64,000 nucleotides of DNA from Arcobacter acticola (GTDB taxonomy: Bacteria > Campylobacterota > Campylobacteria > Campylobacterales > Arcobacteraceae), in NCBI RefSeq assembly GCF_013177675.1, contig NZ_CP042652.1:2356001-2420000 (forward strand), read 5' to 3'. Positions 9,301 to 63,641 of this stretch are shown piece after piece. The translations under genes were made by a program, and so were the position numbers. Each line of letters starts with the position of its first letter. Position 1 is the first letter of the stretch. The notes under the pieces are model-generated. The model saw only the letters and a program-made list of their open reading frames with translations, did not search any database and had not been told where the DNA came from.

Positions 9301-10748
9301 CCAACTGGTTCTTTACCATCTTTAGCCATTGGCTCAATTACTTGATCTAAAACTTCATATGTAATATTAAAGAATTTTTGTTTTTTCTCTAAATCTTCAA
9401 TCTTATAATCTTTTACATTTAAAAAAGTATCCTCAATATATTCTTGAACATAATCCATATCATCATTTAACCATTTAGAATAGTGTTGTGCTGATTTTAA
9501 ATAGTTATTAATATCATCTTCTTTTAGAACTTTCCCGTGCTTTAGGTCAAGTGCTATCATTTGTCCAGATTGTAATCTTCCACGCTCTAAAATATTGTCA
9601 TCTTCAATTTCTAATGTTCCATACTCAGATGTAATATATAATTTATCATCTTTAGTAATAACATATTTAGATGGTCTTAAACCATTTCTATCAATTAAAC
9701 AACCAATGTGTCTTCCATCTGTTAATGAAACAGCGGCAGGTCCATCCCAAGCTTCCATAGCAGTTGCAGTATACTCATAGAATGCTCTTAAATTAGAGTC
9801 CATGTGTGGAGCATTTTGCCAAGGAGCAGGAACTAATGCACGTGCTGCTTTAAAGAAATCCACACCATTTGCCAATAAAAATTCAAACATATTATCTAAA
9901 GATGTAGAATCCGAACCTACATTTTGTAAAATTGGAAGTAATCTTTTCATCTCTTCTTCAGAGAAAATTTCTGATTTTAATTGTTCTGATTTTACTTCAA
10001 CATTAAATCTATTTGCTTCAACTGAATTTATCTCTCCATTATGTGCAATTGCTCTAAATGGTTGAGCTAATCTCCATAAAGGAAGTGTATTAGTCGAAAA
10101 TCTTTGATGAAATAAAGAGAATGTAATTTTAAAATCTTCATCTCTTAAATCAATATAAAAATGCTTTATATGCGTTGGCATAATAAGCCCTTTATACGCA
10201 ATTACTTTTGAAGAGAATGTAGGAATATAAAAATCTTTATTATCTACTAATCTATGCTCACACTCTTTTCTTGTTAAGTAAAGCATTGCATCAAATCTTT
10301 TTGATGACATTAATGTATTTGGTATAACAAATACTTGTACAATGTTAGGTAAACTATCTAACGCTTGTTGACCTAAAGCATCAATATCAACAGGAACTGT
10401 TCTTGTTAATAAAACCTTTAAATCATTTTTTTCACAGTATTCTTTAAATATATCTATTTCAGCTAGATCTCTTGTGAAAATCATTGCAACTGCATAAATT
10501 TCTGGTAAGTCAACACCTTTTTGTGTTGCTACTTTTCTCATAAAAGAATCTGGCATTGATAATAATAAACCTGAACCATCTCCAGTTTTACCATCAGCAG
10601 CCACTGCACCCCTATGCATCATTCTTTCAAGTGAAGTTATTGCATCTTCTAAATTTTTATGACTTGGTCTGTTTTTCATATCAGCTACTAAACCAAACCC
10701 ACAATTATCTTTAAAAGAAGTTAATAAGTCTAAATTGCACCCCATCAT
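6309..10748 (-). CDS. gltB: Glutamate synthase large subunit (GOGAT alpha chain)
   Basis: A full-length 1479-residue GltB. Domains in order are an Ntn amidotransferase, a central domain, the FMN/3Fe-4S synthase domain and the GXGXG beta-helix. The nucleophile is Cys16 in DNCGFGL, implying removal of a 15-residue propeptide, as known for GltB. The FMN-domain block GEGGEDSKRFG and the cluster segment CHTNKCSVGVATQ are present, and GGTGAAPLTS is seen in the synthase domain. An AAGGG box precedes the ATG. It heads a long minus-strand run that goes on into lipid A genes; the divergent neighbour is the TRAP operon. Confidence 0.97.
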   Translation of the reverse strand: MMGCNLDLLTSFKDNCGFGLVADMKNRPSHKNLEDAITSLERMMHRGAVAADGKTGDGSGLLLSMPDSFMRKVATQKGVDLPEIYAVAMIFTRDLAEIDIFKEYCEKNDLKVLLTRTVPVDIDALGQQALDSLPNIVQVFVIPNTLMSSKRFDAMLYLTRKECEHRLVDNKDFYIPTFSSKVIAYKGLIMPTHIKHFYIDLRDEDFKITFSLFHQRFSTNTLPLWRLAQPFRAIAHNGEINSVEANRFNVEVKSEQLKSEIFSEEEMKRLLPILQNVGSDSTSLDNMFEFLLANGVDFFKAARALVPAPWQNAPHMDSNLRAFYEYTATAMEAWDGPAAVSLTDGRHIGCLIDRNGLRPSKYVITKDDKLYITSEYGTLEIEDDNILERGRLQSGQMIALDLKHGKVLKEDDINNYLKSAQHYSKWLNDDMDYVQEYIEDTFLNVKDYKIEDLEKKQKFFNITYEVLDQVIEPMAKDGKEPVGSMGDDTPLACFSQVNRNFTDFFRQKFAQVTNPPIDPYREKVVMSLETGFGRVHNILDEKPEYAKRLKITSPILMKEKYDIVYSFGDEKSPRYDEYYKNRVFSTTFKNDLKKSLEKLASYVVKAVSKDGVSVVILDDRSINENEKVIPAALAVGYINQKLLKEEIRHNVSIISITGEVYDPHMAAVLIGFGCTAIYPYMMFASTVAFFQREKPSKYETQKLLKNTQKSVNAGILKIMSKMGICTVASYRNSGLFDIIGLSDEIVNDCFTGAHSDLAGLTYGDIEDRINKSHKNAFVEENTMFPLDLGGFYKYSNGGEYHDYGPATTNAMHNKKAAKKEDITDFEGLRDLVNNRDKKFIRDFFEFNSDKEAIDVSEVESKEDIFKRFASAAMSLGSISPEAHEAMATAMNTIGGMSNSGEGGEDSKRFGTIKNSKIKQVASGRFGVTPAYLRSAEELQIKVAQGAKPGEGGQLPGHKVTALIATLRHTVAGVTLISPPPHHDIYSIEDLAQLIFDLKQVNPLAKITVKLVSSIGVGTIAAGVAKAYADKIVISGGDGGTGAAPLTSIKHAGNPWEMGLSEAHNALKANKLREFVHVQTDGGLKTGLDVVKAAMLGAESYAFGTASLTLLGCKILRICHTNKCSVGVATQDENLRDFFTGTVDRLISYFTFIAEDIRNILASLGYKTIEEIVGRSDLLKVIDDKFAQKFDFQNILRRIDGIDTCQKETNAPFDNNKFEKELLKKVHRTIENPNSPIKISTDISNLNRSFGALISGEIARFYGDKGLPENSITINLNGIAGQSFGAFLSKGMNLYLNGAANDYVGKGMNGGKIIINPAQQGKDFSGGGNTCLYGATGGKLYIRANVGERFAVRNSGCTSVVEGTGDNACEYMTGGIVVILGNTGINFGAGMTGGLAFVYDPEKTFVDKMNQELIESVRIDTDDTERERLYLKRLLLDYLHETDSEMSDNILQNFRAEIRNFWMVKPKNMTVLPLDPDKGD

Positions 10749-10890
10749 TTCCCTTTATATTAATCTCACATATTCCTTAAGTAAAGTCCGATAATATACT
10801 ATAAATTAGTTTAAAAAAAGTTAATAGCTAAAATAATAGAATCTTTACGATACCACATTATACAAAATATTTGAGCATTAATTTTTTCAC

Positions 10891-10967
10891 ACATGTATAT
10901 TTTTTATACATATGTTGTTTTTGTACACTTTTTATTTATGTGTATAAAAAATTCCTTTTGTACATAA
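10891..10967. promoter_or_regulatory. Cluster of TGTA-type inverted repeats upstream of dctP
   Basis: Three related sites lie in the divergent gltB-dctP gap. TGTATA (10894-10899) faces TATACA (10905-10910). TGTACAC (10922-10928) faces GTGTATA (10940-10946). A third TGTACA lies near 10959. They sit upstream of the dctP -10 box. A regulator-binding role is inferred from their repetition and position; AT-rich chance palindromes remain possible. Confidence 0.4.
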
Positions 10968-10986
10968 TACTTACACAAGATTTAAC

Positions 10987-10992
10987 TATAAT
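10987..10992 (+). promoter_or_regulatory. Candidate -10 box of the TRAP operon
   Basis: A perfect TATAAT lies 35 bases before the dctP ATG, with AT-rich upstream sequence and no clear -35 box. This is usual for housekeeping promoters in Campylobacterota, which often lack a -35 hexamer. The strong AAGGAG ribosome site follows at 11011-11016. Confidence 0.55.
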
Positions 10993-11026
10993 TTTTGTAT
11001 ATCAAAAATTAAGGAGAAAAAGAGAT

Positions 11027-12019
11027 ATGAAAAAATTAGTTATAGGTACAATAGCAGCAGCTATGATGGCAACTGCAGGTTTAGCAGCAGATTATGTAAT
11101 GAAAGTAAGTCATGTTGTAAGTGACAGTACGCCAAAAGGTAAAGCTGCAATTTTCCTTGAAAAAAGAATTGAAGAATTAACTGCTGGAAAAATTGATGTT
11201 CAAGTATTCCCAAATTCACAATTATATGGTGATGGTGAAGAAATGAAAGCTCTTGTAATGGATAATGTACAATTAATTATGCCAAGTTTATCAAAGTTTA
11301 CGAGTATCGCACCAGAAATGCAACTATTTGACTTACCTTTCTTATTTAGAGATAAAGCACACCTTTACAATGTAATGGACGGAGAAGTTGGTAATATTTT
11401 AAAATCTAAAATTGATGCAAAAAAACAAATGATTGCACTTGATTACTGGGATGCAGGATTTAAACATTTTTCTACAAATGCTAAACCTATCGTATTACCT
11501 GAAGATGCTGCTGGTCATAAATATAGAATTCAAAGTTCAAAAGTTCTAGAAGCACAATTTAAAGCAATTGGTGGGAATCCTCAAGTTCTTCCATTCTCAG
11601 AAGTTTACTCAGCTTTACAACAAGGTGTTGTTGATGGAACTGAAAATCCATTATCAAACTTCTATACAAAAAAATTCAATGAAGTACAAACAAGTCTTAC
11701 TTTAAGTAGTCATGGTTACTTAGGATACTTAGTAGTTATGAGTGATAGATTCTGGAAAAAACTTCCTGCAGATCTTCAAGCAAAAGTTTCTCAAGCTATG
11801 AAAGAAGCAACTGCATTTGAAAGAGAAGAATCTGCTGTAGAAGATGCAAAAATCATGGAATCTTTAAGAGCATATGCTAAAGATACAAACAAACTTGAAA
11901 TTATTGAATTAACAGCTGATCAAAAAGCACAATGGAAAAAAGTAATGGCTACTGTTTATCCAAAGTTCTATGATGTAATTGGTGAAGATTTAATTCAAAA
12001 AGCAATTGACGCAAAATAA
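11027..12019 (+). CDS. dctP: TRAP transporter periplasmic substrate-binding protein (DctP family)
   Basis: A 330-residue periplasmic receptor for a carboxylate, working with the DctQM membrane pair. The start is the ATG at 11027 behind AAGGAG; an in-frame ATG at 10871 lacks a ribosome site and would add a nonsense hydrophobic leader. The chosen start gives a clean signal peptide ending TAGLAADY. The family core shows FPNSQLYGDGEEMKALVMD, and around residue 160 SSKVLEAQFKAIGGNPQVLPF with the conserved arginine just before it. QQGVVDGTENPLSNFY follows. C4-dicarboxylate is the commonest ligand, but the specificity is not readable. Confidence 0.92.
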   Translation: MKKLVIGTIAAAMMATAGLAADYVMKVSHVVSDSTPKGKAAIFLEKRIEELTAGKIDVQVFPNSQLYGDGEEMKALVMDNVQLIMPSLSKFTSIAPEMQLFDLPFLFRDKAHLYNVMDGEVGNILKSKIDAKKQMIALDYWDAGFKHFSTNAKPIVLPEDAAGHKYRIQSSKVLEAQFKAIGGNPQVLPFSEVYSALQQGVVDGTENPLSNFYTKKFNEVQTSLTLSSHGYLGYLVVMSDRFWKKLPADLQAKVSQAMKEATAFEREESAVEDAKIMESLRAYAKDTNKLEIIELTADQKAQWKKVMATVYPKFYDVIGEDLIQKAIDAK

Positions 12020-12031
12020 AAAAGTAAAAAT

Positions 12032-12583
12032 ATGAAAAAATTCTTTGATACTATTGATTTAATAGTAGGTATGATTAACCAAACAATGGCAGTCGTAGGA
12101 CTGTCATTAGGGGTTATATTAGCATTTATTAATGTAATATTGAGATATGCGTTTGATATGAGTCTTACTTGGGCTGCTGAACTAACTAACTATCTTTTTA
12201 TCTGGGCTGCACTTTTTGGAGCTGCGTATGGATTTAAACAAGGAGCGCATATTTCAGTAAGTTTAATTATTGAAAGGTTTTCGCCAAAAGTCACCAAAGG
12301 CTTTTTGATCTTTGCGAATCTAGTCTCTATTGGATATTTAGGTTTAATTTCATACTTTGGGTATGAATTAATACTGTTATTACAAGATTTTGGTGAAATG
12401 AGTGTGGATTTAGGTATCCCTATATGGATTCCACATCTAGTTCTTCCTATATCATTTGCACTAGCTGCATATAGATGCGCTGAAAAATTAGTTGAAATTT
12501 ATTATACAGATGCAGACGATATAAAATTATATAATGAACATGAAGCAGTGATTCATGAAATTAAATCACAAGGAGATAAATAA
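12032..12583 (+). CDS. dctQ: TRAP transporter small permease (DctQ family)
   Basis: A 183-residue inner-membrane protein with four predicted hydrophobic helices (about residues 15-38, 48-70, 88-110 and 130-150). It has the family block TWAAELTNYLFIWAALFGAA, followed by a GAHISV motif. It is thought to bridge the periplasmic receptor and the large permease. It begins 12 bases after dctP and its stop lies one base before the dctM ATG, so the three genes are one operon. Confidence 0.92.
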   Translation: MKKFFDTIDLIVGMINQTMAVVGLSLGVILAFINVILRYAFDMSLTWAAELTNYLFIWAALFGAAYGFKQGAHISVSLIIERFSPKVTKGFLIFANLVSIGYLGLISYFGYELILLLQDFGEMSVDLGIPIWIPHLVLPISFALAAYRCAEKLVEIYYTDADDIKLYNEHEAVIHEIKSQGDK

Positions 12584-12584
12584 T

Positions 12585-13865
12585 ATGGTTATCGGTACTT
12601 TATTTATTTTACTTTTCGCTCTTATGTTAATAGGAGTTCCAGTTGCTGTTTCATTAGGAGCTACAACATTAATAACTTCATTTCTTTTTACAGATATGGA
12701 TTTAATGGGTATTTCATCTAAAATTTTTGATGGATTAAACAAGTATACACTTATGGCTATCCCTATGTTTATTTTAGCAGGTGCTTTACTTTCACGTGGT
12801 TCATCTGCAATGAGAATTATTAATTTTGCAAAAAGCTTAGTTGGACATCTTCCAGGTGGTCTTCCAATTGCTGCTATTCTTGCATCTATTATTTTTGCGG
12901 CTGTTAGTGGAAGTTCTCCTGCTACTGTTGCTGCTATTGGTTCTGTTATGTATGGAGCTATTAAACAAGCTGGATATAACGAACAATTTGCTATTGGTAC
13001 TATTGCAACATCAGGAACTCTTGGAATTTTAATTCCACCTTCTATTGTATTTATCGTATTTGGGGTAACTGCTGATCAATCTATTGGAAAGCTATTCATG
13101 GCTGGAGTTATTCCTGGACTTATGATTGGTATTATGATGATGATTGCTACATATTTCTTAGCAAAAAGAAGTGGATTCAAAGCTACAAAACCTGCTACTT
13201 TTAAAGAACGATTTACAGCATTTAAAGATTCTTTTTGGGCTTTATTAATTATTGTTGTTGTTATTGGTGGAATCTATGGGGGTATTTTTACTCCAACAGA
13301 AGCCGGTGCGTTTAGTGTTATGTATGCATTTTTTGTTTCATTCTTTATTTATAAAGATACAAAATATAAAGATTTATATAGAATTATTTTAGATTCAGCA
13401 CAAACAAGTTCAATGATTTTCTTCATTATTGCTAATGCAATGTTATTTGCGCACTTTTTAACAGATGAGCAAATTCCTCAACATATCACTCAACTGATAT
13501 TAGAAGCTAATGTTGGACCATTAATGTTCTTATTAATAGTAAATATTTTACTTTTATTAATGGGACAATTTATGGAACCAAGTTCTGTGGTAATGATTAC
13601 AGTACCTCTATTACTTCCAATTGGTATTGCTTTAGGAATAGATCCTATTCACTTAGGTGTTATTATGGTTGTAAATATGGAAATAGGAATGATAACCCCA
13701 CCTGTGGGACTCAATCTCTTTGTAGCCAGTGGAATAACGGGGCTTAGTCTAAAACAAGTTATTGTTGCATCTTTACCGATGACAGGAATATTACTTATTG
13801 GATTAATGCTAATAACTTATATTCCAGAAATTTCTCTTTGGTTGCCAAGATTAATGTATGGATAA
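12585..13865 (+). CDS. dctM: TRAP transporter large permease (DctM family)
   Basis: A 426-residue, roughly 12-helix membrane protein that carries out Na+-coupled solute uptake. The start is ATG 12585 behind an AGGAG box at 12571-12575; a longer in-frame start at 12555 would lie inside dctQ. Family signatures include AAVSGSSPATVAAIGS near residue 106, TSGTLGILIPPSIVFIVFG, FTPTEAGA and MEIGMITPPVGLNLFV near the C-terminus. An intrinsic terminator follows the stop, closing the operon. Confidence 0.93.
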   Translation: MVIGTLFILLFALMLIGVPVAVSLGATTLITSFLFTDMDLMGISSKIFDGLNKYTLMAIPMFILAGALLSRGSSAMRIINFAKSLVGHLPGGLPIAAILASIIFAAVSGSSPATVAAIGSVMYGAIKQAGYNEQFAIGTIATSGTLGILIPPSIVFIVFGVTADQSIGKLFMAGVIPGLMIGIMMMIATYFLAKRSGFKATKPATFKERFTAFKDSFWALLIIVVVIGGIYGGIFTPTEAGAFSVMYAFFVSFFIYKDTKYKDLYRIILDSAQTSSMIFFIIANAMLFAHFLTDEQIPQHITQLILEANVGPLMFLLIVNILLLLMGQFMEPSSVVMITVPLLLPIGIALGIDPIHLGVIMVVNMEIGMITPPVGLNLFVASGITGLSLKQVIVASLPMTGILLIGLMLITYIPEISLWLPRLMYG

Positions 13866-13872
13866 AAAATTA

Positions 13873-13900
13873 AGTAAGAGTTTATCTCTTACTTTTTTTA
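13873..13900 (+). terminator. Intrinsic terminator after dctM
   Basis: AGTAAGAG (13873-13880) pairs with CTCTTACT (13886-13893) around a TTTAT loop and runs into a T tract. It ends the dctPQM transcript. Confidence 0.85.
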
Positions 13901-13932
13901 TAATTTAGATAGACTTTCAAAAAAGGGTACTT

Positions 13933-14040
13933 ATGACTACTTTACAATCTGAAATATTCTCTTTTACAATTATCGCTTTTGTTGTTATACTTTTAGCATT
14001 TTTCACCCAAAAACTTCAAAATAGAGAACCTAAAGAATAA
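13933..14040 (+). CDS. Small single-helix membrane protein (35 aa), unknown
   Basis: A short frame with an AGGG-like box six bases before its ATG. It begins MTTLQSEIFS and has a 16-18 residue hydrophobic stretch (about residues 9-25) rich in I, F, V, L and A. A charged tail follows (QKLQNREPKE), giving a one-pass, positive-then-acidic C-terminus. It lies after the dctM terminator and its 3' end overlaps the converging glycerophosphodiesterase gene by 11 bases. The composition looks coding rather than random, but no family is recognised. It may be spurious. Confidence 0.45.
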   Translation: MTTLQSEIFSFTIIAFVVILLAFFTQKLQNREPKE

Positions 14041-14734
14041 ACTTCTCAAAAATTACTCCATTTACTTTTTTTTTTATATTTTCATAATCTTCTTTATTTT
14101 TTATGGTCCAAGTTATTAATTCTAAATTATTCTTTTTACAAAAATCATAGACTGAACTATCTAATAATTTATAATCTAAAGAGATAAAGTCTGCTTTTGT
14201 TTTGTAGTATTTATATAAAAAAAGTATTTTATTATATTTTTCAAACTTCTTTGGATTTGATTCAAATATCAATCCTCTTTTTAAATGTGGGTTATTATTT
14301 TTAAACCAAGTTAATACATTTCTTTCAAAGGAACAAATAAAATATTCACCATCGTAATTGTTTAATAACTTAACTATATTGTCTTCTAATACTCCAATAC
14401 TATTATGCTTTTTTATTTCTATTATAAGGGCAATTTTTCCATTTACTAAATATAAAACTTCTTTAAATAAGGGTATTTTTTCATTACTATTATGAAGGTT
14501 CAGTTCTTGTAAATGTGAGTATGTAACATTTTCTATATCTTTATCAACATTACACAATCTAAGCAAATTATCATCATGAAATACAACTACTTTTTCATCT
14601 TTTGTGATTGTCAAATCAAACTCAATCGCATAGTTATATTCAAGAGCCTTTGAAAAAGACAATAATGAGTTTTCAGGTATTAAGTTATTGTGTAAACCCC
14701 TATGAGCGATAAATCTATTTTTAAATAAACTCAT
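14030..14734 (-). CDS. Glycerophosphodiester phosphodiesterase family protein
   Basis: A 234-residue TIM-barrel enzyme that hydrolyses glycerophosphodiesters to glycerol-3-phosphate and an alcohol. The catalytic and metal motifs are at the N-terminus: AHRGLHNNLIPENS (about residues 10-23), then EFDLTITKD and VFHDDNLLRLC carrying the second catalytic histidine. IALIIEIKKH and ITWTIKNKEDYE occur later. There is no signal peptide, so it is cytoplasmic. Its ATG lies inside the end of the upstream histidine kinase gene (14-base overlap), so it is co-translated with that kinase. This pairing is odd and its meaning unknown. Confidence 0.87.
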   Translation of the reverse strand: MSLFKNRFIAHRGLHNNLIPENSLLSFSKALEYNYAIEFDLTITKDEKVVVFHDDNLLRLCNVDKDIENVTYSHLQELNLHNSNEKIPLFKEVLYLVNGKIALIIEIKKHNSIGVLEDNIVKLLNNYDGEYFICSFERNVLTWFKNNNPHLKRGLIFESNPKKFEKYNKILFLYKYYKTKADFISLDYKLLDSSVYDFCKKNNLELITWTIKNKEDYENIKKKVNGVIFEKFIL

Positions 14735-16364
14735 AATTAATCTTTGTATTCTCTTCTATATTTTTAGGAATAATAATAGCAAACTTCGCACCCTCTTTTG
14801 TATTTTTCACTCTTAATTTACCTTTCATATTTTTATCAACAATAATCTTTGACATATAAAGCCCTATTCCTGTTCCATTACTATTTTCTTTTGTAGTAAA
14901 ATATGGTTCAAAAATTTTTCCTTTTGGCTCAACTAAAACTCCACCACCATTATCTTCAATTGTTAAAATCACAAGAGTAGATTCTTCTTGCGCTTTTATT
15001 TTAATATATGGAGATTCAGTATTCTTTTCTATTAAAACATCTTTAGCATTGTTTATTATATTTAATAAAACCTGCTCATACTCATTTACATATGTTTTTA
15101 AAACTATATTTCTATCAATATCAATTTCAAGTTTTATATTATAGTTTTTTAAAGTACTAGAAACAATATTTATTACTATATCAACAACACAGTATAAATG
15201 AAATTCCTCTTTTTCTTTTTTAGGCATAAAGAAATTTCTAAAATCATCAATAGTATGAGACATAAAATCTAAAACCTTATCCGCTTCTTGAAGTTTTTGA
15301 TTCATGGTATTTTCATCTAATGCTTTAATACTTTGTTTAAATTTTATATACATAAGTATAGAGGACAATTCACTTAAAGGCTGTCTCCATTGGTGAGCTA
15401 TATTTGATATCATTTCACCAAGGGCAATAAATTTTGATTTTTGTACAAGAAGTTGTTCTTTTTCCCTATTTTTTTCAATCTCTTTTTGTACTTTTATCTC
15501 TAATGATTCATTTAATTCTTCTAACTCTTTAGCGTTGGATTTAACTTTATTTTCATAACTTTTTAATACCTCATCAATTTTTTGAGAAATTATTATTGAT
15601 ATTAAAATTGCAATTGATAAAAACATTACAAATAAAACTAGATTTTGAACAACTTGATTTTTAATCTTTATCTCTAAATCTCTTTTTTTTATAGCTATTT
15701 CACTTTCAATATCATCGGTATAAACTCCAACAGCTATAATCCAATTCCATTGCTCAAAGTATTTAAAATAAGAAAGCTTTTGTTTTACTTCATCTGAATA
15801 AGGTTTTTTATAAGTATACTGAGTAAAAGATTCTTTATACATTCTTATATCTTTTAAAAAATCTTCTCTGAATTTCTTTCCATTAGTATCTTCTAAATTA
15901 GTAGAAATCAAAGTTCCTACTAAATCAGGTCTATTTGGGTTTACCATTAATCTAGCAAAGTTATCTCCACCTTGAATATTTTCAACTTCATATACAAAAA
16001 AATAGTTACTTTTATTTTCTTCAAATGTAATATTATTTAATAATCTAACCGCATCAATTTTTAACTGTTCATCATCTAAATTTGATTTTGCTATATTATA
16101 ATTTAAAATATCAATTACAGTATTTATCTCTTTTTTTAAAGTCTTTTTTTTATCTAGATAATACTCATTTACAAACTTATCCATTTCTTGCTCAAAATCA
16201 TCATAAGTATTTTTTACATAAAAATAAGATATCGCAAATATCATTGAGGTCATTATTATTATAAAAGTAAAAATTATTGTTTTTGATAAATTTTTTTCTG
16301 TTATTAAATTCAATACGCCCCTTTTTATTTCATCTATTCTTTTATTATAGCGGTAGTTTATCAT
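14721..16364 (-). CDS. Cache-domain sensor histidine kinase
   Basis: A 547-residue membrane sensor. One helix lies at about 28-50 and another at about 240-263. Between them is a periplasmic region with single-Cache features (MVNPNRPDLVGT, then FEQWNWIIAVGVY). A coiled coil (about 265-310) leads to the HisKA box [13 protein letters not shown] with His324. The HATPase part shows NNAKDVL, LTIEDNGGGV, FEPYFTTK and GTGIGLYMSK. It diverges from the response regulator at 16554, its likely partner, and lies near the TRAP operon, which could be the target. The ligand is unknown; a carboxylate is plausible. Confidence 0.87.
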   Translation of the reverse strand: MINYRYNKRIDEIKRGVLNLITEKNLSKTIIFTFIIIMTSMIFAISYFYVKNTYDDFEQEMDKFVNEYYLDKKKTLKKEINTVIDILNYNIAKSNLDDEQLKIDAVRLLNNITFEENKSNYFFVYEVENIQGGDNFARLMVNPNRPDLVGTLISTNLEDTNGKKFREDFLKDIRMYKESFTQYTYKKPYSDEVKQKLSYFKYFEQWNWIIAVGVYTDDIESEIAIKKRDLEIKIKNQVVQNLVLFVMFLSIAILISIIISQKIDEVLKSYENKVKSNAKELEELNESLEIKVQKEIEKNREKEQLLVQKSKFIALGEMISNIAHQWRQPLSELSSILMYIKFKQSIKALDENTMNQKLQEADKVLDFMSHTIDDFRNFFMPKKEKEEFHLYCVVDIVINIVSSTLKNYNIKLEIDIDRNIVLKTYVNEYEQVLLNIINNAKDVLIEKNTESPYIKIKAQEESTLVILTIEDNGGGVLVEPKGKIFEPYFTTKENSNGTGIGLYMSKIIVDKNMKGKLRVKNTKEGAKFAIIIPKNIEENTKINYEFI

Positions 16365-16553
16365 TTTTTTTAATTCTTAATTTTTTATTAATATCTAAGT
16401 AAAATAAAATCTCATAAAAAACCTTCCTCATATAATAAACCCTTATAATATCTAAAAAAATGTTTAATTACTTCAATGCATAAATTTTTTATGCTTTATT
16501 CTTAACCTAAATTTGATATGATAATATAAATATTTATAAGGATTCATAAAGTT

Positions 16554-17240
16554 ATGCAAAATAATTTTACAAATAAACTTAATGCTTTTTCTGTTTTATA
16601 TGTAGAAGATGAAGATGGAATCAGAAAAAATATTGAAGAAATCTTACGGCATTTATTTAAAGAAACCAATAGTGCTTCAAATGCAAGTGAAGCCTATGCG
16701 AAATACTTAGAATTTAATCCTGATTTAATTATTACAGATATAAAAATGGGTGCTGAAACAGGAATTGATTTAATTAAAAAGATTAGAAAATCTGATTCAA
16801 AAACTAGAATTATTATAAGCTCTGCACATACAGATTTAGATTATTTGCTACAAGCTGCTGAACTTCACCTTGTAAAATATATAGTAAAACCTATAACTCA
16901 AGATAAACTAATGAATGCATTAGAAGCTTTTGTTAATACCTACAATGAAGATAAAATATATAACCTTGATCCAAATTGGATTTTTGATTATAAGGAATCA
17001 ATCATCTCAAATGGAAATGAAATATTTACTTTAACAAAAAAAGAAAACACTTTTTTAAGACTTCTCATTACTAAAAATAGACTTATTACATATGAAGAGT
17101 TAGAAAATAGTGTTTGGGATGATGACTCAATTATGACAGCAAATGCCATGAGACTTTTTATTAAAAATTTTAGGAAAAAACTTCCTCAAAATTTTCTAAA
17201 AAATATTCAAGGCCTTGGATATAAATTAATTAAGGAATAA
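16554..17240 (+). CDS. OmpR/PhoB-type response regulator
   Basis: A 228-residue DNA-binding regulator. The receiver domain (about 10-125) has the acidic pair EDED, the phospho-acceptor Asp62 in LIITDIKMG, a switch serine in IISSAH and the conserved lysine in YIVKPI. The C-terminal part (about 140-228) is a winged helix with LTKKENTFLRLLI and RLFIKNFRKKLP, then NIQGLGYKLI. It is transcribed away from the Cache kinase across a 189-base gap, the usual arrangement for a cognate pair. The TGTA repeats upstream of dctP are a possible binding site, by inference only. Confidence 0.9.
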   Translation: MQNNFTNKLNAFSVLYVEDEDGIRKNIEEILRHLFKETNSASNASEAYAKYLEFNPDLIITDIKMGAETGIDLIKKIRKSDSKTRIIISSAHTDLDYLLQAAELHLVKYIVKPITQDKLMNALEAFVNTYNEDKIYNLDPNWIFDYKESIISNGNEIFTLTKKENTFLRLLITKNRLITYEELENSVWDDDSIMTANAMRLFIKNFRKKLPQNFLKNIQGLGYKLIKE

Positions 17241-51757: not shown

Positions 51758-52516
51758 TTATAATTTTGAAATAAATGTAGCTAATGCATCAATTTCCGCA
51801 TCTGTTTTAGTAGCTACTTGTCCTTTCATAATATTTTTCATAACTCCACCGTATGTTCCAGCTTTATATCCATTTAATGCTTGAATAGTTTTTTCTTTAT
51901 CCCATCCTGCAATTACTTGTGATTTACCTAATGCTTCTTTTTCAGCTTTTTGACCATGACATGATGCACAAGATTTGTATAATGCTTCTCCATCTAAACC
52001 TTCTGCAACTGGAGCTACTGCTTCTGTTGCATTTGCAACTACAGCTTCAGCAGTAGTTACAGCTGCCGCAACTGCTGTTTCACCTTGAGCTACTGCAGTA
52101 GCTGCAACTTCTTTTGTTTCTTCAACAACTGCAACTGCCATTTCTTTTGTACTTTCTTTAACTTCTTCAACTTTAGCAGCTGTTTCAGTAACTGCTGTAT
52201 TTGCAGCTTCTTTTACTGTTGTATCACTTGCAGATACAGCTTCTTTTGCAGTTTCCATCACGTTTGCAGTAGTTTCTTTAACTGCTTCACTTGTGTTTTC
52301 AACAACTTTATTAGTTGCTTCAGTAACTGTGTTAGTAACTTCTGTTGCGGCTTTTGTAACTGTTTGTGCTACATCTTTTGTAGCTTCAGCAACCACTTCT
52401 TTTGTAGTTGTTTGCTCTGTTGCAACTTTAGTTGCTTCAGCAGTTGTTTTTTTCTCGTCTCCACATCCAGCTAATAAAAGTACTGTAACCGCAGAACCTA
52501 ATAAAATTCTATTCAT
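51758..52516 (-). CDS. Lipoprotein: long A/T/V/E-rich helical repeat region plus C-terminal cytochrome c
   Basis: 252 residues. The signal ends LLLAGC, a clear lipobox. Residues about 20-170 are a low-complexity, amphipathic helical region built of repeated short units such as EATKDVAQTVTKAA. It is rich in Ala, Thr, Val and Glu and poor in other residues. Residues about 175-252 form a small class I cytochrome c: heme motif CASCH (near 182) and a likely Met axial ligand in GGVMKNIMKG. The repeat region may act as a spacer across the periplasm or envelope. An electron-carrier role is likely; the partner is unknown. Confidence 0.82.
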   Translation of the reverse strand: MNRILLGSAVTVLLLAGCGDEKKTTAEATKVATEQTTTKEVVAEATKDVAQTVTKAATEVTNTVTEATNKVVENTSEAVKETTANVMETAKEAVSASDTTVKEAANTAVTETAAKVEEVKESTKEMAVAVVEETKEVAATAVAQGETAVAAAVTTAEAVVANATEAVAPVAEGLDGEALYKSCASCHGQKAEKEALGKSQVIAGWDKEKTIQALNGYKAGTYGGVMKNIMKGQVATKTDAEIDALATFISKL

Positions 52517-56160: not shown

Positions 56161-57291
56161 ATGACTTCTGCAATAGATTTATCTAAATTAACAGCAAATG
56201 ATGATTTAACACCAGTTCTTGGTGGATATTGGCCTGGTATTCAAATTTATTACCCACCAATTAAATTTAATCCATTAGATGGAACATATGAGAGTATGGA
56301 ACAAGCAAAGCTTAGACTACAAAAACACGCTTATAAAACTAAAGCACATACAGTTTTATTTGACTTAGAAGATGGTTGTAGACAAAAAGCAATGTCAAGA
56401 GAACTTTTAATTCAAGAGTTACCAAAGTTTCCTGAAAGAACTTTCCAGATAGCTGTAAGAATAAATCCATTTAGAACAGATGAATATGAAGAAGATTTAA
56501 AAATGTTAAAACAAATTCATCAATACATTGATGTTATTGTTCTTGCGAAAGCTGGAGAAGTTTATGGATCTGCTGAAATTAGAGATTTATCATCTTGGTT
56601 AATTTCAATCGGTAGTAATTTAACAATTCAACCAATTATTGAACATCCAAAATCTCTTCAAATCGCTGATAGATTAATGGATCATTCAACTGTTAAACAT
56701 GTTGTTTTTGGTATTCACGATTTCTCTAAAGCTATGGCTTATAAAATCACTCCTCAAGGATGGATTAATGAGTTAGAAACTTTCTTTAATATGCTTACGA
56801 TGGAAGCTAGAATTAAAGGTAAAGGGGTTATTGGTGGAGTTGAAGTTATGTTAACACCACATTCACTACCTGATAATTGTGTTGAGAAAAAAGATATTAG
56901 AAGATGGTTAGATTTACATGGTGATGATGCATCAAGACATGTTTATGCTCATGCAATTAGAGAAAATGCAATGGGATTAACAGGTAAACAAGTTATTACC
57001 CCAAATCATATTAATGTTTGTAAAGTTGCTTTTACTCCTTCTCCTAAAGAAATTGAAAAAGACATAAGAATATTAAAAGAAGCTATCAATGCTGATGCAC
57101 TATTAAGTGGAGCAATCAGATATGAAGGTGAAATGTTAGATCCACCAATGTTTGGTAAATCTTTACAAAATATTTTAAGAGCTTATGCATTAAGATCTTT
57201 AGCAAAAGAGGATGAGATTTTTGCATTATCTGTACTAAACAGAATGCCAATTCATACATTTAAAGAAAACTGGCCTTACGGTCAAATTTAG
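56161..57291 (+). CDS. HpcH/HpaI-family CoA-ester lyase (citrate lyase beta-like), 376 aa
   Basis: CitE/malyl-CoA-lyase superfamily with all the usual active-site blocks: VLFDLEDGCRQKA (about 67), AVRINPF (about 101), LAKAG, PIIEHPKS with the metal-ligand Glu, and FGIHDFSKAM with the metal-ligand Asp. The C-terminal GKQVITPNHINVCKVAFTPS equals the GK.xIHPxQ block. About 60 extra residues (GGVEVMLTPHSLPDN and following) lie between the two halves, making it longer than classical members. AAAGG precedes the ATG. It starts the cluster; the substrate, probably a malyl- or citramalyl-type CoA, is not known. Confidence 0.82.
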   Translation: MTSAIDLSKLTANDDLTPVLGGYWPGIQIYYPPIKFNPLDGTYESMEQAKLRLQKHAYKTKAHTVLFDLEDGCRQKAMSRELLIQELPKFPERTFQIAVRINPFRTDEYEEDLKMLKQIHQYIDVIVLAKAGEVYGSAEIRDLSSWLISIGSNLTIQPIIEHPKSLQIADRLMDHSTVKHVVFGIHDFSKAMAYKITPQGWINELETFFNMLTMEARIKGKGVIGGVEVMLTPHSLPDNCVEKKDIRRWLDLHGDDASRHVYAHAIRENAMGLTGKQVITPNHINVCKVAFTPSPKEIEKDIRILKEAINADALLSGAIRYEGEMLDPPMFGKSLQNILRAYALRSLAKEDEIFALSVLNRMPIHTFKENWPYGQI

Positions 57292-57306: not shown

Positions 57307-59826
57307 ATGAGTTCAAACGTAAAAATTGAAATACCTGAATTTTTAAACATCGGGTTTGCTTGTACTTCTGCTCATGTGGGAACACCTAAAGAGAACAGTA
57401 TTGCAATGATAATCGAAGATGATAAATTAGGTACAGATGAAATAAGTTATAAAGATTTAGCTACTAAATCTGACCAAGTTTGTAATTTCTTTACTAGTAT
57501 TGGTCTTGAAGCTAGAGATAGAGTTCTTGTTTGTTTAAAAAACTCACTTGCATACCCTATTTCATTCTTTGGAACAATGAAAGCTGGAATCATAGCAGTT
57601 CCAACTTCTACACTTTTAAGTGGTAGTGAAGTTAAGTATCTTGCTGAAGATTCACAAGCAAGAGCAATTGTATTATCAGCTTCTATGTATGAGAATTTAG
57701 TTCCATACTTAGAAAACCTTGATAACTTAAAAACAATTGTAATTGCTGGAATTGATAGTGTTGAAAATATCAAAAAACCAAAAGATATTAATGTTTATTC
57801 ATTAAATGAAATTTTTGCAAATACTGATAAAACACCAAATCATTATAATTCTAAATCAGGAGAACCTGCATATTTAGTTTATACATCAGGAACAACTGGT
57901 TATCCAAAAGGTGTTTTACACTCACATAGATCACTTGTAGGAAGAACTCCTGCTACTAAATTTTGGTTTGATTTTAAAGAAAATGACAGAATCATGCATT
58001 CTGGTAAATTTAACTGGACTTATGTATTAGGATCAGCACTTATGGATCCATTGTTTAATGGTCATACAGTTATTGCTTATGAAGGTTCAAATGATGCATC
58101 TACTTGGATTAATTTAATTAAGAAACATAGTTGTACTATCTTTATTGGAGTTCCAACCATTTATAGACAAATCATTCAAAAAACTGATTTTACTTTAGAA
58201 GATTGCCCAAGCTTAAGATATTGTATGAGTGCTGGTGAGCATTTATCAGATGAGATGTTAGGTCTTTGGAGAGAAAAATTCAAACAAGATATTTATGAAG
58301 CAATCGGAATGAGCGAGTGTTCATACTATATTTCTCACTCAAAAAACAATCCTATTAGACCTGGGTCTGCAGGATTCGTACAACCAGGACATACTGTTAA
58401 ACTTTTAGATCCAGATACACTTGAAGAAGTAGTTGATGGTGAAGAAGGAATGATTTGTATTGGTGAAGATGATCCAGGTTTATTCTTAGAGTATTGGCAA
58501 TTAGAAGAAGAAACTGCAAAATCAAGACATGATGGGTATTTCTTCACAGGTGATTATGCTAAAAAAGATGAAGATGGATATATCTGGTTTATTGGTAGAA
58601 AAGATGACATCATCAATACTTTTGGATTTAGAGTATCACCTCATGAAATTGAAAGAGTTGTAAAAACACATGATGCGGTTGCTGATTGTGTTGCTTTTGG
58701 TTTAGATATTGGAAAAGATAAAACAATAGTTGCTATTGCAGTTATTGGTCATGAAGAATTAAGCGAAGAAAAACAAACAGAAGTATTAGCATTTGCACAA
58801 GCTAATCTTGCAAAATATAAAGCTCCAAAAGAGATTTTTGCAATGCTTGATTATCCAAGAACTAAAAATGGAAAAGTTTTAAGAAAACAACTTGTAAAAC
58901 AATTACATGAAAAATATCATGCAATTGAAACTGGAACTGAAATTGTTGAATATAAAGCTAGAAGATCTATGTTATTTGTACCCGCTTATAATAAGCATAA
59001 TGTACAAAAAGCAAAAACAGTACTTGCAGATGCTGTTATTTTTGACCTTGAAGCTATTTTACAAGAACAAAGAGAACTTGGAAGATCAACAGTTGCTGAA
59101 GTTTACAAAGAAGATGGAGCTAAATTTGGTGAGTCTGAAAGAGTTTTAAGAATTAATAATCTTGGAAGTGAAGACTTAGCAAAAGATTTAGAACTTGCTA
59201 AAACAATCGAACTTGATGGTTTATTATTTTCTAAAATTCAAACAAAAGAAGATGTACTAGAAGCGGTAAGATTATTAGAAGAAGTAAATCCAGAATTATC
59301 TTTGATGATTATGGTTGAAACTCCATTATCAGTTTTAAATATTCAAGAAATTTGTGCTGCTAGTCCTAAAGTTGAAGTTATTGTTGTTGGATCTAATAAA
59401 CTTGCAAATAGACTTCAAATTGATATTAAAAAAGGTTCAAAAGCAATGCTTAACTATTTATCACAAATTGCCCTTGCTGCTAAAGCATATGGTAAAACTG
59501 TGATTGATGGACCACACTTTGATGTTCATGATGAATTTGCATGTGAAGATTCAACTAAAGATGCATTTAACCTAGGATATGATGGAAAATCACTTATTCA
59601 CCCTGTTCAAATTGAATATATTAATGATATCTTCACTCCAAAACAAGCTGAAGTTGAAGATTATGAATTAATGATTTCTAAATATGAAGAAGCAACTAAA
59701 GAAGGTAAAGAAGTAATCTTACATAATGATAAATTAGTTGATTCATCAAAAATTAAATGGGCTAAAAAAATGATTACATTATATGAAACATATAAATCAT
59801 TAGGTCAAAACCTATTTAATAAATAA
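57307..59826 (+). CDS. Acyl-CoA ligase fused to a degenerate CitE/Mcl-like domain
   Basis: 839 residues. Residues about 1-545 are an AMP-forming acyl-CoA ligase, of the benzoate-CoA-ligase-like kind. They carry LVYTSGTTGYPKGVLHSH (about 190), YEAIGMSECS, FFTGDYAKKDEDGY, FIGRKDDIINTFGFRVSP and the catalytic lysine in TKNGKVLRKQL (about 522). Residues 552-839 are a CitE/Mcl1-like barrel (RRSMLFVPAYNKHN; LGYDGKSLIHPVQ; DKLVDSSKIK). There the DLED block reads DLEAIL and the metal-ligand Asp is replaced (VGSNKLANRL), while the Glu (MVETP) is kept. The ligase is probably active; the second domain may not be. An AAGGAG box precedes the start. Confidence 0.85.
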   Translation: MSSNVKIEIPEFLNIGFACTSAHVGTPKENSIAMIIEDDKLGTDEISYKDLATKSDQVCNFFTSIGLEARDRVLVCLKNSLAYPISFFGTMKAGIIAVPTSTLLSGSEVKYLAEDSQARAIVLSASMYENLVPYLENLDNLKTIVIAGIDSVENIKKPKDINVYSLNEIFANTDKTPNHYNSKSGEPAYLVYTSGTTGYPKGVLHSHRSLVGRTPATKFWFDFKENDRIMHSGKFNWTYVLGSALMDPLFNGHTVIAYEGSNDASTWINLIKKHSCTIFIGVPTIYRQIIQKTDFTLEDCPSLRYCMSAGEHLSDEMLGLWREKFKQDIYEAIGMSECSYYISHSKNNPIRPGSAGFVQPGHTVKLLDPDTLEEVVDGEEGMICIGEDDPGLFLEYWQLEEETAKSRHDGYFFTGDYAKKDEDGYIWFIGRKDDIINTFGFRVSPHEIERVVKTHDAVADCVAFGLDIGKDKTIVAIAVIGHEELSEEKQTEVLAFAQANLAKYKAPKEIFAMLDYPRTKNGKVLRKQLVKQLHEKYHAIETGTEIVEYKARRSMLFVPAYNKHNVQKAKTVLADAVIFDLEAILQEQRELGRSTVAEVYKEDGAKFGESERVLRINNLGSEDLAKDLELAKTIELDGLLFSKIQTKEDVLEAVRLLEEVNPELSLMIMVETPLSVLNIQEICAASPKVEVIVVGSNKLANRLQIDIKKGSKAMLNYLSQIALAAKAYGKTVIDGPHFDVHDEFACEDSTKDAFNLGYDGKSLIHPVQIEYINDIFTPKQAEVEDYELMISKYEEATKEGKEVILHNDKLVDSSKIKWAKKMITLYETYKSLGQNLFNK

Positions 59827-59835
59827 GGAGTAAAT

Positions 59836-60906
59836 TTGTCAAAAATAAGTAATAAGATTAATTTCGGGAATTTCTTTGAAGATTTTTCAATTGGTCAAAA
59901 AATTGTTCATCCACTTCCTAGAACAATAAGTGATGGTGATGTATCTTTATACATCGCTTTCACTGGTTCTAGATTTGCTCTGCACTCTTCTGATACAGTA
60001 GCAAAACAAATGGGATATGATAAAAAACCAATTGATGATATGTTAATGTTTCACTTAACATTTGGTAAATCTGTTCAAGATGTATCTTTAAACGCAATTG
60101 CTAACTTAGGTTATGCAGAAATGTCTTTCCCTAATTCAGTTTTTGTAGGTGACACAGTTTCTATGACATCTACTGTTATTGGATTAAAAGAGAATTCAAA
60201 TGGTAAAAGTGGAGTTGTTTATGTTCACTCTATTGGTGTAAACCAAGATGGAGCTGAAGTTTTAAACTTCAAAAGATGGGTAATGGTTCATAAAAAAGAT
60301 AAAGAGACCTTATCAAATATCAATGAAGTTCCTACTTTTGCGAAAACGACACCAATTGCTGATGTTATTAATATCCCAACAATTAAAACTGTAGATACAG
60401 ATTCGACTGGTGGAAAATATTTCTTTGAAGATTATGTAGCAGGTGAAAGACTTAATCACCCAGAAGGTATTACTATTGATAATAGTGACCATACATTAGC
60501 AACAAAGTTATATCAAAACAATGCAAAAGTACATTTCAATGACCACATGATGAAATCAACTCCTATGGGTCAAAGACTTATGTATGGAGGAATCATTATT
60601 TCAATGGCAAGAGCTATTTCATTTAATGGTTTACAAAATGCGCAATGGGTATACGCTATTAATAGTGGTGCTCATGCAAACCCTACATATGCAGGTGATA
60701 CAATTTATGCATATACTGAAGTTATTGAAACAATTGAAGTGAATAGAGATGATATTGGATTATTAAGACTTAGAACTGTGGCTATTAAAAACCAAGTTTC
60801 TAAAGAAATTGAAAATCCAAAAGATGAAGATGGTAAATATTTACCATCGGTTGTACTTGACTTAGATTACACTGTTGTAATCCCAAAAACTAAAACAAAA
60901 AAATAA
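59836..60906 (+). CDS. mch: Mesaconyl-CoA hydratase (double-hotdog MaoC type)
   Basis: Interconverts mesaconyl-C1-CoA and beta-methylmalyl-CoA. 356 residues starting with TTG behind AAGGAG (59825-59830). It has close agreement with what I recall of the Rhodobacter mesaconyl-CoA hydratase: NFFEDFSIGQKIVH, PRTISDGDVSLYIAFTGSRFA (in part), VSLNAIANLGYA and GVVYVHSIGVNQDG in the first hotdog. YFFEDYVAGERLNHPEG, TKLYQNNAKVHFN, AINSGAHANPTYAGDTIYA and DLDYTV follow in the second. It sits between the ligase fusion and an Mcl-type lyase, which fits its role. Confidence 0.88.
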   Translation: MSKISNKINFGNFFEDFSIGQKIVHPLPRTISDGDVSLYIAFTGSRFALHSSDTVAKQMGYDKKPIDDMLMFHLTFGKSVQDVSLNAIANLGYAEMSFPNSVFVGDTVSMTSTVIGLKENSNGKSGVVYVHSIGVNQDGAEVLNFKRWVMVHKKDKETLSNINEVPTFAKTTPIADVINIPTIKTVDTDSTGGKYFFEDYVAGERLNHPEGITIDNSDHTLATKLYQNNAKVHFNDHMMKSTPMGQRLMYGGIIISMARAISFNGLQNAQWVYAINSGAHANPTYAGDTIYAYTEVIETIEVNRDDIGLLRLRTVAIKNQVSKEIENPKDEDGKYLPSVVLDLDYTVVIPKTKTKK

Positions 60907-60933: not shown

Positions 60934-61917
60934 ATGACACACCCAAAAGAAGCACTATTCGGTTCTGGGGATAACTTACCAATCATTCCATCTTGTGAAC
61001 ACTTTGCAGGTAGCGAAAAGCTAATCTTAAAAGGTTTTGAGATGCAAAAAAAATTAGGACCTGTTTTTGATATTACTTGTGACTGTGAAGATGGAGCTGA
61101 AACTGGTAAAGAAGTTGCACATGCTGAAATGATCGTAAGAGTTGTAAATTCTGATGCTAATCCATATTCAATGGCAGGAACTAGAATCCATGATTTTGAC
61201 CATCCAGATTGGAGACAAGATATTGATATTTTAGTACCAGGTGCTGGAGAAAAATTAGCATATATTACAATTCCTAAATCAACTTCTTATGAAGATGCAA
61301 AAACTCAAGTTGAATATATTCAAGCAACTGCAAAAAAAGCTGGAATTACAAGAGAAATCCCAATTCACGTTTTAATTGAAACACATGGTGCTTTAAGAGA
61401 TGTTGAAAAAACTGCAACATTACCTTGGGTACAAGTATTAGACTTTGGATTAATGGATTTCGTATCTGGTTATCAAGGTGCAATTCCAGCTTCTTGTATG
61501 AGAAGTCCAGGTCAATTTGATCATAGATTAATTGCTGCTGCAAAAGCTAAAGTTGTTCAAGCTGCACTTTCTAATCATATTATTCCTTGTCACAATGTTA
61601 CACTTGATTTAAAAAACCCATACCAAACTTATAAAGATGCTGAAAAAGCAAGAAATGAGTTCGGATTCTTAAGAATGTGGTCAATTTATCCAACACAAGT
61701 ACAAGCTATTGTTGATGCAATGAAACCTGACTTTACAGAACTTGAAGATGCTCAAAATATCTTAATTGCTGCTCAAAATGCTGAGTGGGGACCAATTCAA
61801 TATGATGGTGAATTACACGATAGAGCAACTTATAGATATTTCTGGGAATTAGTTCAAAGAGCAAAATTCTCTGGAACTAAATTACAAGATATCGTTGAAG
61901 AAAGATTCTTCGCTTAA
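60934..61917 (+). CDS. Malyl-CoA/beta-methylmalyl-CoA lyase-type enzyme (HpcH/HpaI), 327 aa
   Basis: Reversible aldol cleavage of malyl-CoA or methylmalyl-CoA to glyoxylate and acetyl- or propionyl-CoA. The active-site blocks are complete: ITCDCEDGAETGKE (about 50), TRIHDFDH, YITIPKS, HVLIETHGALRD (metal Glu) and VLDFGLMDFVSGYQG (metal Asp). The C-terminal FLRMWSIYPTQVQAIVDA stands for the IHPxQ block. It differs from the Rhodobacter Mcl1 type and represents another subfamily. A hairpin follows the stop. Its position next to mch strongly suggests beta-methylmalyl-CoA as a substrate; this is inference. Confidence 0.85.
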   Translation: MTHPKEALFGSGDNLPIIPSCEHFAGSEKLILKGFEMQKKLGPVFDITCDCEDGAETGKEVAHAEMIVRVVNSDANPYSMAGTRIHDFDHPDWRQDIDILVPGAGEKLAYITIPKSTSYEDAKTQVEYIQATAKKAGITREIPIHVLIETHGALRDVEKTATLPWVQVLDFGLMDFVSGYQGAIPASCMRSPGQFDHRLIAAAKAKVVQAALSNHIIPCHNVTLDLKNPYQTYKDAEKARNEFGFLRMWSIYPTQVQAIVDAMKPDFTELEDAQNILIAAQNAEWGPIQYDGELHDRATYRYFWELVQRAKFSGTKLQDIVEERFFA

Positions 61918-62147: not shown

Positions 62148-63641
62148 ATGAGCGTAATAAAACAACAAGATATAATCGATAGTATTGCTGATGCATGTCA
62201 GTATATTTCATATTTTCACCCAGAAGATTTCGTAACAGCAATGGTAGAAGCTTATGAGAATGAAAAATCAGAAGCTGCAAAAAATGCACTAGGACAAATT
62301 TTAATTAATTCTAAAATGTGTGCTTTAGGACATAGACCTTTATGTCAAGATACAGGTTCTGTAAATATTTTTGTAAGAGTTGGATTAAAAGCTAACTTAG
62401 AATTAACAAAAGAATTAGTAGATGTATTAAATGAAGGTGTAGCTAAAGGTTATACTAATCCTGATAATACATTAAGATATTCAGTTGTTTCTGATCCTGC
62501 AGGAAAAAGAACAAATACAAAAGATAACACTCCAGCTGTTATTCATGTTACTGTTGATAATTCAGATGAATTAGATATTACAGTTGCTGCAAAAGGTGGA
62601 GGAAGTGAAAATAAATCTAAATTTGCAGTATTAAATCCATCAGATTCAGTTTATGACTGGGTTATGGCAAATGTTAGAGAAATGGGAGCTGGATGGTGTC
62701 CTCCTGGAATTTTAGGTATTGGTATTGGTGGTAATCCAGAAAAATCAATGCTTTTAGCAAAAGAGTCTTTAATGGGGCATGTTGATATTCATGAACTTCA
62801 AGCAAGAGGTCCTCAAAATGCTTTAGAAGAATTAAGATTAAGACTTTATACAGATATTAATAAAATTGGAATTGGTGCTCAAGGTTTAGGTGGTTTAACT
62901 ACAGTTGTAGATGTTAAAATCTTAGATTACCCATGTCATGCTGCTTCACTTCCTGTTGCTATGATTCCTAACTGTGCTGCTACTAGACATATTCACTTTA
63001 AATTAAAACCAGGGGAAGGTGTAGCTAAATTTAAAAAACCAAATTTAGATTTATGGCCAGATGTAAAATTACCATTAGATTCTATTAAAAAAGTAAATAT
63101 TGCAGACTTAACAAAAGAGAACTTATCTCAATTTAAATCAGGTGATACACTATTATTAACTGGAAAAATTTTAACAGCTAGAGATGCTGCTCATAAAAAA
63201 ATTGTTGAGTACAAAAATGCTGGTAAACCACTTCCAAATGGTGTTGATTTAAAAGATAGATTCATCTACTACGTTGGACCTGTTGATCCTGTTCGTGATG
63301 AAAAAGTAGGACCTGCGGGACCAACTACATCTACAAGAATGGATAAATTTACAAAAGATATGATGGAAATTGGAATCATGGGAATGATTGGAAAAGCTGA
63401 AAGAAAACAACCAACTATTGATTTAATTAAAGAATACAAATCTATGTATTTAATTGCAACAGGTGGAGCAGCATACTTAATTTCTCAATCAATCAAAGAT
63501 GCAAAAGTTCTTGCATTTGAAGAGATGGGAATGGAAGCTATTTATGAGTTTGATGTAGAAGATATGCCTGTAACTGTAGCTGTTGATACAGAGGGTGTTT
63601 CAATTCACACAACTGGTCCTGCTAAATGGAGAACTATTTAA
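62148..63641 (+). CDS. Class I (iron-sulfur) fumarase/mesaconase
   Basis: 497 residues with fused alpha and beta parts. Candidate [4Fe-4S] ligands are Cys66 (GHRPLCQDTGSV), Cys184 (GWCPPGILGIGIGG) and Cys276 (NCAATRHIHF); spacings of 118 and 92 agree with class I fumarases. The beta part shows LLTGKILTARDAAHKK, YYVGPVDP and GPAGPTTSTRMD. Enzymes of this class hydrate fumarate and, in several bacteria, mesaconate to citramalate. It has its own upstream region (230 bases), so it may be separately regulated. The cluster context favours mesaconase, but housekeeping fumarase is equally allowed by sequence. Confidence 0.88.
   Translation: MSVIKQQDIIDSIADACQYISYFHPEDFVTAMVEAYENEKSEAAKNALGQILINSKMCALGHRPLCQDTGSVNIFVRVGLKANLELTKELVDVLNEGVAKGYTNPDNTLRYSVVSDPAGKRTNTKDNTPAVIHVTVDNSDELDITVAAKGGGSENKSKFAVLNPSDSVYDWVMANVREMGAGWCPPGILGIGIGGNPEKSMLLAKESLMGHVDIHELQARGPQNALEELRLRLYTDINKIGIGAQGLGGLTTVVDVKILDYPCHAASLPVAMIPNCAATRHIHFKLKPGEGVAKFKKPNLDLWPDVKLPLDSIKKVNIADLTKENLSQFKSGDTLLLTGKILTARDAAHKKIVEYKNAGKPLPNGVDLKDRFIYYVGPVDPVRDEKVGPAGPTTSTRMDKFTKDMMEIGIMGMIGKAERKQPTIDLIKEYKSMYLIATGGAAYLISQSIKDAKVLAFEEMGMEAIYEFDVEDMPVTVAVDTEGVSIHTTGPAKWRTI

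Follow-up and report, generated by a model that had tools for sequence, protein, structure and literature searches.

An acyl-CoA ligase of Arcobacteraceae is fused to a CitE-like domain that appears to have lost its lyase metal site

The 64,000-nucleotide stretch of Arcobacter acticola DNA analyzed here (the window) encodes an 839-amino-acid protein, at positions 57307 to 59826 of the plus strand, in which an acyl-CoA ligase is fused to a CitE-like pseudo-lyase domain. Judging from its sequence and those of its homologues, it is well supported that this domain would no longer have canonical Mg-dependent lyase activity. We consider it probable that it is a pseudoenzyme, with features of the CoA-ester pocket and of the trimer type retained, that is kept in a non-catalytic role within a mesaconate/citramalate-type module, where it would serve oligomerization, docking, or regulation. 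The absence of activity, as well as trimerization, ligand binding, regulation or docking, and a mesaconate/citramalate substrate, is what we infer from the data presented below.

The open reading frame was confirmed at these coordinates and is preceded by a good ribosome-binding site. Its product matches the Pfam families AMP-binding (residues 42 to 397), AMP-binding_C (residues 447 to 523), and HpcH_HpaI (residues 553 to 766), each above the gathering score. The first 540 residues (57307 to 58926, plus strand) form an AMP-forming CoA ligase domain with the features of the ANL superfamily, namely, the AMP-binding and AMP-binding_C matches, the P-loop TSGTTGxPKG (here TSGTTGYPKG), and the catalytic C-terminal lysine. 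These signature motifs are kept, T193 to G198, P200 to G202, and K523 being invariant in 24 aligned fused proteins. Regarding the substrate of the ligase (mesaconate or another acid), none of the best 25 NCBIfam models reached its own cutoff. A linker of low confidence in the full-length model (residues 541 to 549; 58927 to 58953, plus strand) leads to the CitE-like part (residues 550 to 839; 58954 to 59823, plus strand).

This part belongs to the CitE-like superfamily, a TIM barrel of the HpcH_HpaI type followed by a C-terminal lid. It matches PF03328 with 110.7 bits, and its AlphaFold2 (AF2) model has a pLDDT of 90.1. By structure comparison (VIA; Foldseek was also run), the best match was the human citramalyl-CoA lyase CLYBL (5VXC, 5VXO, and 5VXS), with a Z score of 33.5 over 282 residues, and malyl-CoA lyase gave 33.3, in both cases with the lid included. 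The sequences by which the initial annotation had recognized the fold (LFVPAYNKHN, LRINN, MVETP, and YDGKSLIHPVQ) are all present. CLYBL differs from the fused domain in having kept the acids of its GGED and CEDG motifs, and the two share 22% identity. The full-length AF2 model (pLDDT of 71.9, pTM of 0.47) was too weak to be read for domain packing, oligomerization, or contacts with the ligase.

Residue equivalences were set by alignment to solved lyases and from a structural study of malyl-CoA lyases (MCL) (PMC3832036). In the C. aurantiacus enzyme, the metal ligands are Glu157 and Asp184 (Asp168 in R. sphaeroides MCL), the second-shell acids Glu60 and Asp61 correspond to the DLED pair, and Arg92 and the lid residue Asp318, the putative catalytic aspartate, are further key residues (PMC3832036). 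In the window protein, Lys698 (59398 to 59400, plus strand) aligns with Asp184, the second Mg ligand, as had been claimed from the motif GSNKLAN. The DLED block, read as DLEAIL by the initial annotation, is indeed DLEA (residues 580 to 583; 59044 to 59055, plus strand); the loop is additionally one residue shorter than DLED, which leaves a single second-shell acid where the solved lyases have two. Thus, neither the second metal aspartate nor the complete Glu-Asp pair of a catalytic lyase is present in the window protein. It has kept the other three residues, Arg615 (Arg92 in MCL; 59149 to 59151), Glu671 (the first metal ligand, Glu157; 59317 to 59319), and Asp812 (the lid Asp318; 59740 to 59742), all on the plus strand, a retention that the initial annotation had not mentioned.

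The same picture emerged from an alignment of 59 distinct fused proteins. None of them has the metal aspartate, its position being occupied by lysine in 45, asparagine in 8, threonine in 3, and serine, alanine, or arginine in one each; the absence of this residue is therefore not due to chance. The position of Asp61 is likewise never acidic (55 alanines, 3 glycines, and 1 methionine). Position 615 is arginine in 54 proteins and lysine in 5, position 671 is glutamate in 54 and aspartate in 5, and Asp812, alone among the seven positions checked, never varies (59/59). With redundancy weighting, the entropy at position 698 was 2.06 bits, at the 90th percentile of the domain, while that of the lid aspartate was 0 bits; the variable metal position lies within an invariant GxN-x-L motif formed by G695, N697, and L699. 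A reading-frame or assembly artifact was rejected because dozens of independent genomes show the same state, and Lys698 was rejected as a family-wide catalytic or charge-substitute residue because the site varies among K, N, T, S, A, and R.

The initial annotation had left room for another acidic residue in the metal site. In the alignment, no acid is conserved near position 698, Asp706 being replaced by serine or asparagine in other members, and a shifted metal ligand was rejected on this basis. This also speaks against an active Mg-dependent lyase whose metal site has been rearranged, as does the fact that Glu671 and the shortened DLED loop supply at most two of the four acids. Despite the retention of Glu671, Arg615, and Asp812, and despite the suggestion in the A. 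butzleri genome paper that malyl-CoA lyase activity could reside in any of the three CitE proteins (PMC2147049), we regard such an enzyme as highly improbable.

The domain could, alternatively, still be an enzyme with an altered, metal-free chemistry, such as CoA-thioester hydrolysis or acyl transfer, carried out by Asp812, Arg615, and Glu671, with Lys698 replacing the cation in some members. The invariance of Asp812 and the conservation of charge at positions 615 (Arg/Lys) and 671 (Glu/Asp) are consistent with this idea. So is the lid glutamate reported as the signature of the malyl-CoA thioesterase clade of R. sphaeroides (PMC3832036), which is shared by the nearest intact relative that we found (citA of locus L067, a sister lineage described below) and by most standalone homologues. 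By its description, however, the thioesterase clade differs from the fused clade, which has a lid aspartate and no metal aspartate. Moreover, Lys698 is not conserved, its site is among the most variable of the domain, and all characterized CitE-like enzymes, the thioesterase included, require a divalent metal (PMC3832036). We therefore consider metal-free catalysis unlikely.

The fused gene lies in a same-strand run of five genes. It is preceded by a CitE/HpcH-type lyase of 376 amino acids (lyase 1; 56161 to 57291, PF03328) and followed by a MaoC-like protein resembling mesaconyl-CoA (2-methylfumaryl-CoA) hydratase (59836 to 60906; PF19315, 77 bits, above the cutoff), by a second lyase similar to malyl-CoA/beta-methylmalyl-CoA lyases (lyase 2; 60934 to 61917, PF03328), and by a class I fumarase-type hydro-lyase, possibly a mesaconase (62148 to 63641; PF05681/PF05683), all on the plus strand. 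In many Arcobacteraceae, though not in every one, the fumarase-type gene adjoins the module. The citD and citF neighbors of a true citrate lyase beta subunit (CitDEF) were not found, the neighbors being lyases, MaoC, fumarase, and BioD. Lyases 1 and 2 served as same-operon controls for the active-site loss, and both were intact at all seven positions, as were 71/71 and 54/54 of their relatives, respectively, which extends the earlier remark that both sites are kept in the cluster's other two lyases. Together, the family-wide loss of the aspartate, the deletion in the DLED loop, and these intact controls strongly support the earlier proposal of an inactive CitE-like domain on an intact ligase. 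As a separate observation, the MaoC-type gene of two other loci (L057, 10521 to 11585, and L124, 5327 to 6391, perhaps one organism) is split into two adjacent open reading frames of 121 and 233 amino acids by a single stop codon that falls between the two halves.

The fusion is present in the window genome and in 30/30 other genomes of the genus (one copy being split by a contig end), in 18/30 sampled genomes of other Arcobacteraceae, and in two genomes from a different family within the order. Among the genomes examined, no lineage was found that has dropped the domain. The median dN/dS of the CitE-like domain was 0.18, compared to 0.14 (ligase), 0.15 (MaoC), and 0.10 to 0.11 (active lyases). 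This is the highest value of the five module parts compared, yet it is well below 1, and dN was higher in the CitE-like domain than in the ligase half in 1145/1255 pairs, which are not independent. Selection on the domain is relaxed but clearly purifying. We argue from the conserved lid aspartate and the charge-conserving changes at the arginine and glutamate positions that the pocket and the lid contact are still under selection. The faster evolution of the domain and the variability of its catalytic positions would also be expected if the domain were decaying, left over from a bifunctional ligase-lyase and no more than tolerated. We find this very unlikely in view of its presence in 31/31 genomes of the genus and 18 of other Arcobacteraceae, its dN/dS, the invariance of the lid aspartate and the GxN-x-L motif, and the lack of domain-less lineages among the genomes examined.

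Some gammaproteobacteria, among them Thalassotalea, Thalassomonas, and Chromatiales, encode the CitE-like domain in a gene of its own within the module. The order there is, as a rule, lyase 1, ligase, CitE-like gene, and MaoC, with lyase 2 divergent; in locus L158, exceptionally, the CitE-like gene adjoins MaoC and not the ligase. These module-linked standalone genes are eroded as well, with DLQE, DLHE, DLYE, DLGA (L158), or DLHR (L154) in place of DLED. The Thalassotalea type has DLQE, both primary metal ligands, and a lid glutamate, and four genes (L066, L155, L156, and L157) have asparagine at the metal site and glutamine at the lid. In a maximum-likelihood tree, the fused proteins formed a clade (support 100/100), which was joined with the module-linked standalone proteins (99/96), and the intact L067 citA (DLED, GTSD, and lid glutamate) was placed as their sister (100/99). 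Both clades persisted after removal of long branches. These sequences indicate that the fusion arose once, in the Campylobacterota lineage, and that the metal aspartate was lost at least twice, independently and to asparagine in one gammaproteobacterial group. Since separate-gene relatives in the same module are eroded and are grouped with the fused proteins by the tree, the erosion of the DLED pair is older than the fusion. The idea that fusion caused the erosion was rejected on the same grounds, and the original framing of the fusion had to be corrected in two respects: the erosion predates it, and both fusion and cluster had already been described in A. butzleri (PMC2147049). The L067 stretch (Chromatiales; 7956 to 16737) carries ligase and MaoC genes together with three CitE-like genes in which DLED and the metal aspartate are intact; lyase 1 is absent from the part examined, and the arrangement is possibly ancestral.

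We propose that the domain descends from the third CitE-like gene of a conserved module that also comprised two active CitE-type lyases, a CoA ligase, and a MaoC-type mesaconyl-CoA hydratase. This gene would already have been losing its second metal shell when a single fusion event joined it to the ligase. The resulting barrel and lid would lack the canonical means of holding Mg2+, and Claisen-type C-C cleavage would consequently not take place. CitE-like proteins are trimers or hexamers whose swapped lids close the pocket of the neighboring subunit and provide it with the lid aspartate (PMC3832036), so the ligase would be expected to become trimeric or hexameric through this domain. The leftover pocket may bind a CoA ester or a 2-oxo or hydroxy acid, and this ligand may regulate the ligase, or the domain may dock the active lyases and the hydratase. 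From this analysis, we infer that the simplest role would be to oligomerize the ligase and possibly to bind a CoA ester so as to regulate or dock it. The initial annotation had suggested a sensor, a docking unit, or a product channel; the retained fold, lid aspartate, arginine, and glutamate are compatible with all three and do not tell them apart. Two observations weigh against a purely non-catalytic role. Arg615, Glu671, and Asp812 are kept or conservatively changed, which makes residual or different catalysis conceivable, and both primary metal ligands persist in the Thalassotalea-type standalone relatives, so that the wider family is perhaps not wholly dead.

The swapping of lids (PMC3832036), together with Asp812 as the only invariant position of the seven (59/59), also raises the possibility that the domain forms mixed trimers with an active lyase, lending it the lid aspartate as a regulatory or channeling subunit of a hetero-oligomer. 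The active lyases, however, fall in separate clades on long branches from the pseudo-lyase domain, and this distance makes co-assembly less likely; in addition, some standalone relatives have glutamine at the lid. We hence judge mixed trimers to be quite unlikely.

Compared to the malyl-CoA lyases of R. sphaeroides (4L9Y), C. aurantiacus (4L80), and M. extorquens (5UGR), the fused domain shares the TIM barrel, the swapped lid, the arginine, the first metal glutamate, the lid aspartate, and the GKxxIHPxQ motif, but it has lysine, asparagine, or another residue for the second metal aspartate, a shortened DLED, and an attached CoA ligase. For the non-catalytic role that we favor, a functional analogue is the pseudo-dihydroorotase of P. 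aeruginosa aspartate transcarbamoylase, reported to be an inactive enzyme-fold partner needed by the active enzyme, although it is a separate chain of unrelated fold and pathway (PMC7053772). There is also a precedent in A. butzleri, where Miller et al. (2007) described the same five genes (AB1917 to AB1921), including AB1918, an acetyl-CoA synthetase with a CitE domain (PMC2147049). They proposed parts of the 3-hydroxypropionate and citramalate cycles, in which the lyase could be any of the three CitE proteins, and took the CitE domain of the fusion as a possible active lyase; the accessible part of their paper does not remark on the loss of its metal site (PMC2147049). In the open-access literature searched, we found no CitE-like clade without a metal site that is kept as a fused non-lyase domain. 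While the fusion and the cluster were thus known since 2007, a maintained fused clade with a lost metal site appears to be new. The working model of an Arcobacter pathway with three candidate CitE lyases should be corrected, as probably only two of them can be lyases. Furthermore, the eroding relatives in two bacterial lineages offer a way to test how an enzyme domain turns into a fused non-catalytic part.

Regarding the pathway, the window genome gave no match to malate synthase; an isocitrate lyase was likewise not found, the only hit being a short match in a 297-amino-acid open reading frame, probably a methylisocitrate lyase. IclR-family regulators adjoin the module in relatives (L119, 10567 to 11331; L058, 5762 to 6493) but not in the window, and the best match of the L119 regulator was the BhcR model, below its cutoff. 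These observations are consistent with an anaplerotic role in which glyoxylate and propionyl-CoA would take part, but they are no proof of it. In a gammaproteobacterial carrier (G519, contig 1, near 134193 to 135560), lyase 2 is followed by a PrpB-like open reading frame, and the cluster also contains genes for malic enzyme and PEP synthase; these genes hint at an anaplerotic route of the citramalate/methylcitrate type. More tentatively, we can imagine a dedicated pseudo-lyase family, standing alone in gammaproteobacteria and attached to the ligase in Campylobacterota, as the organizing or sensing hub of an uncharacterized anaplerotic route of the mesaconate/citramalate type, where it might bind a CoA ester without metal and gate or channel the ligase, hydratase, and lyase steps. 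Elsewhere in the window, on the minus strand (51758 to 52516), a lipoprotein-like open reading frame contains a long low-complexity stretch rich in threonine, alanine, and glutamate, followed by a cytochrome c-type CASCHG motif.
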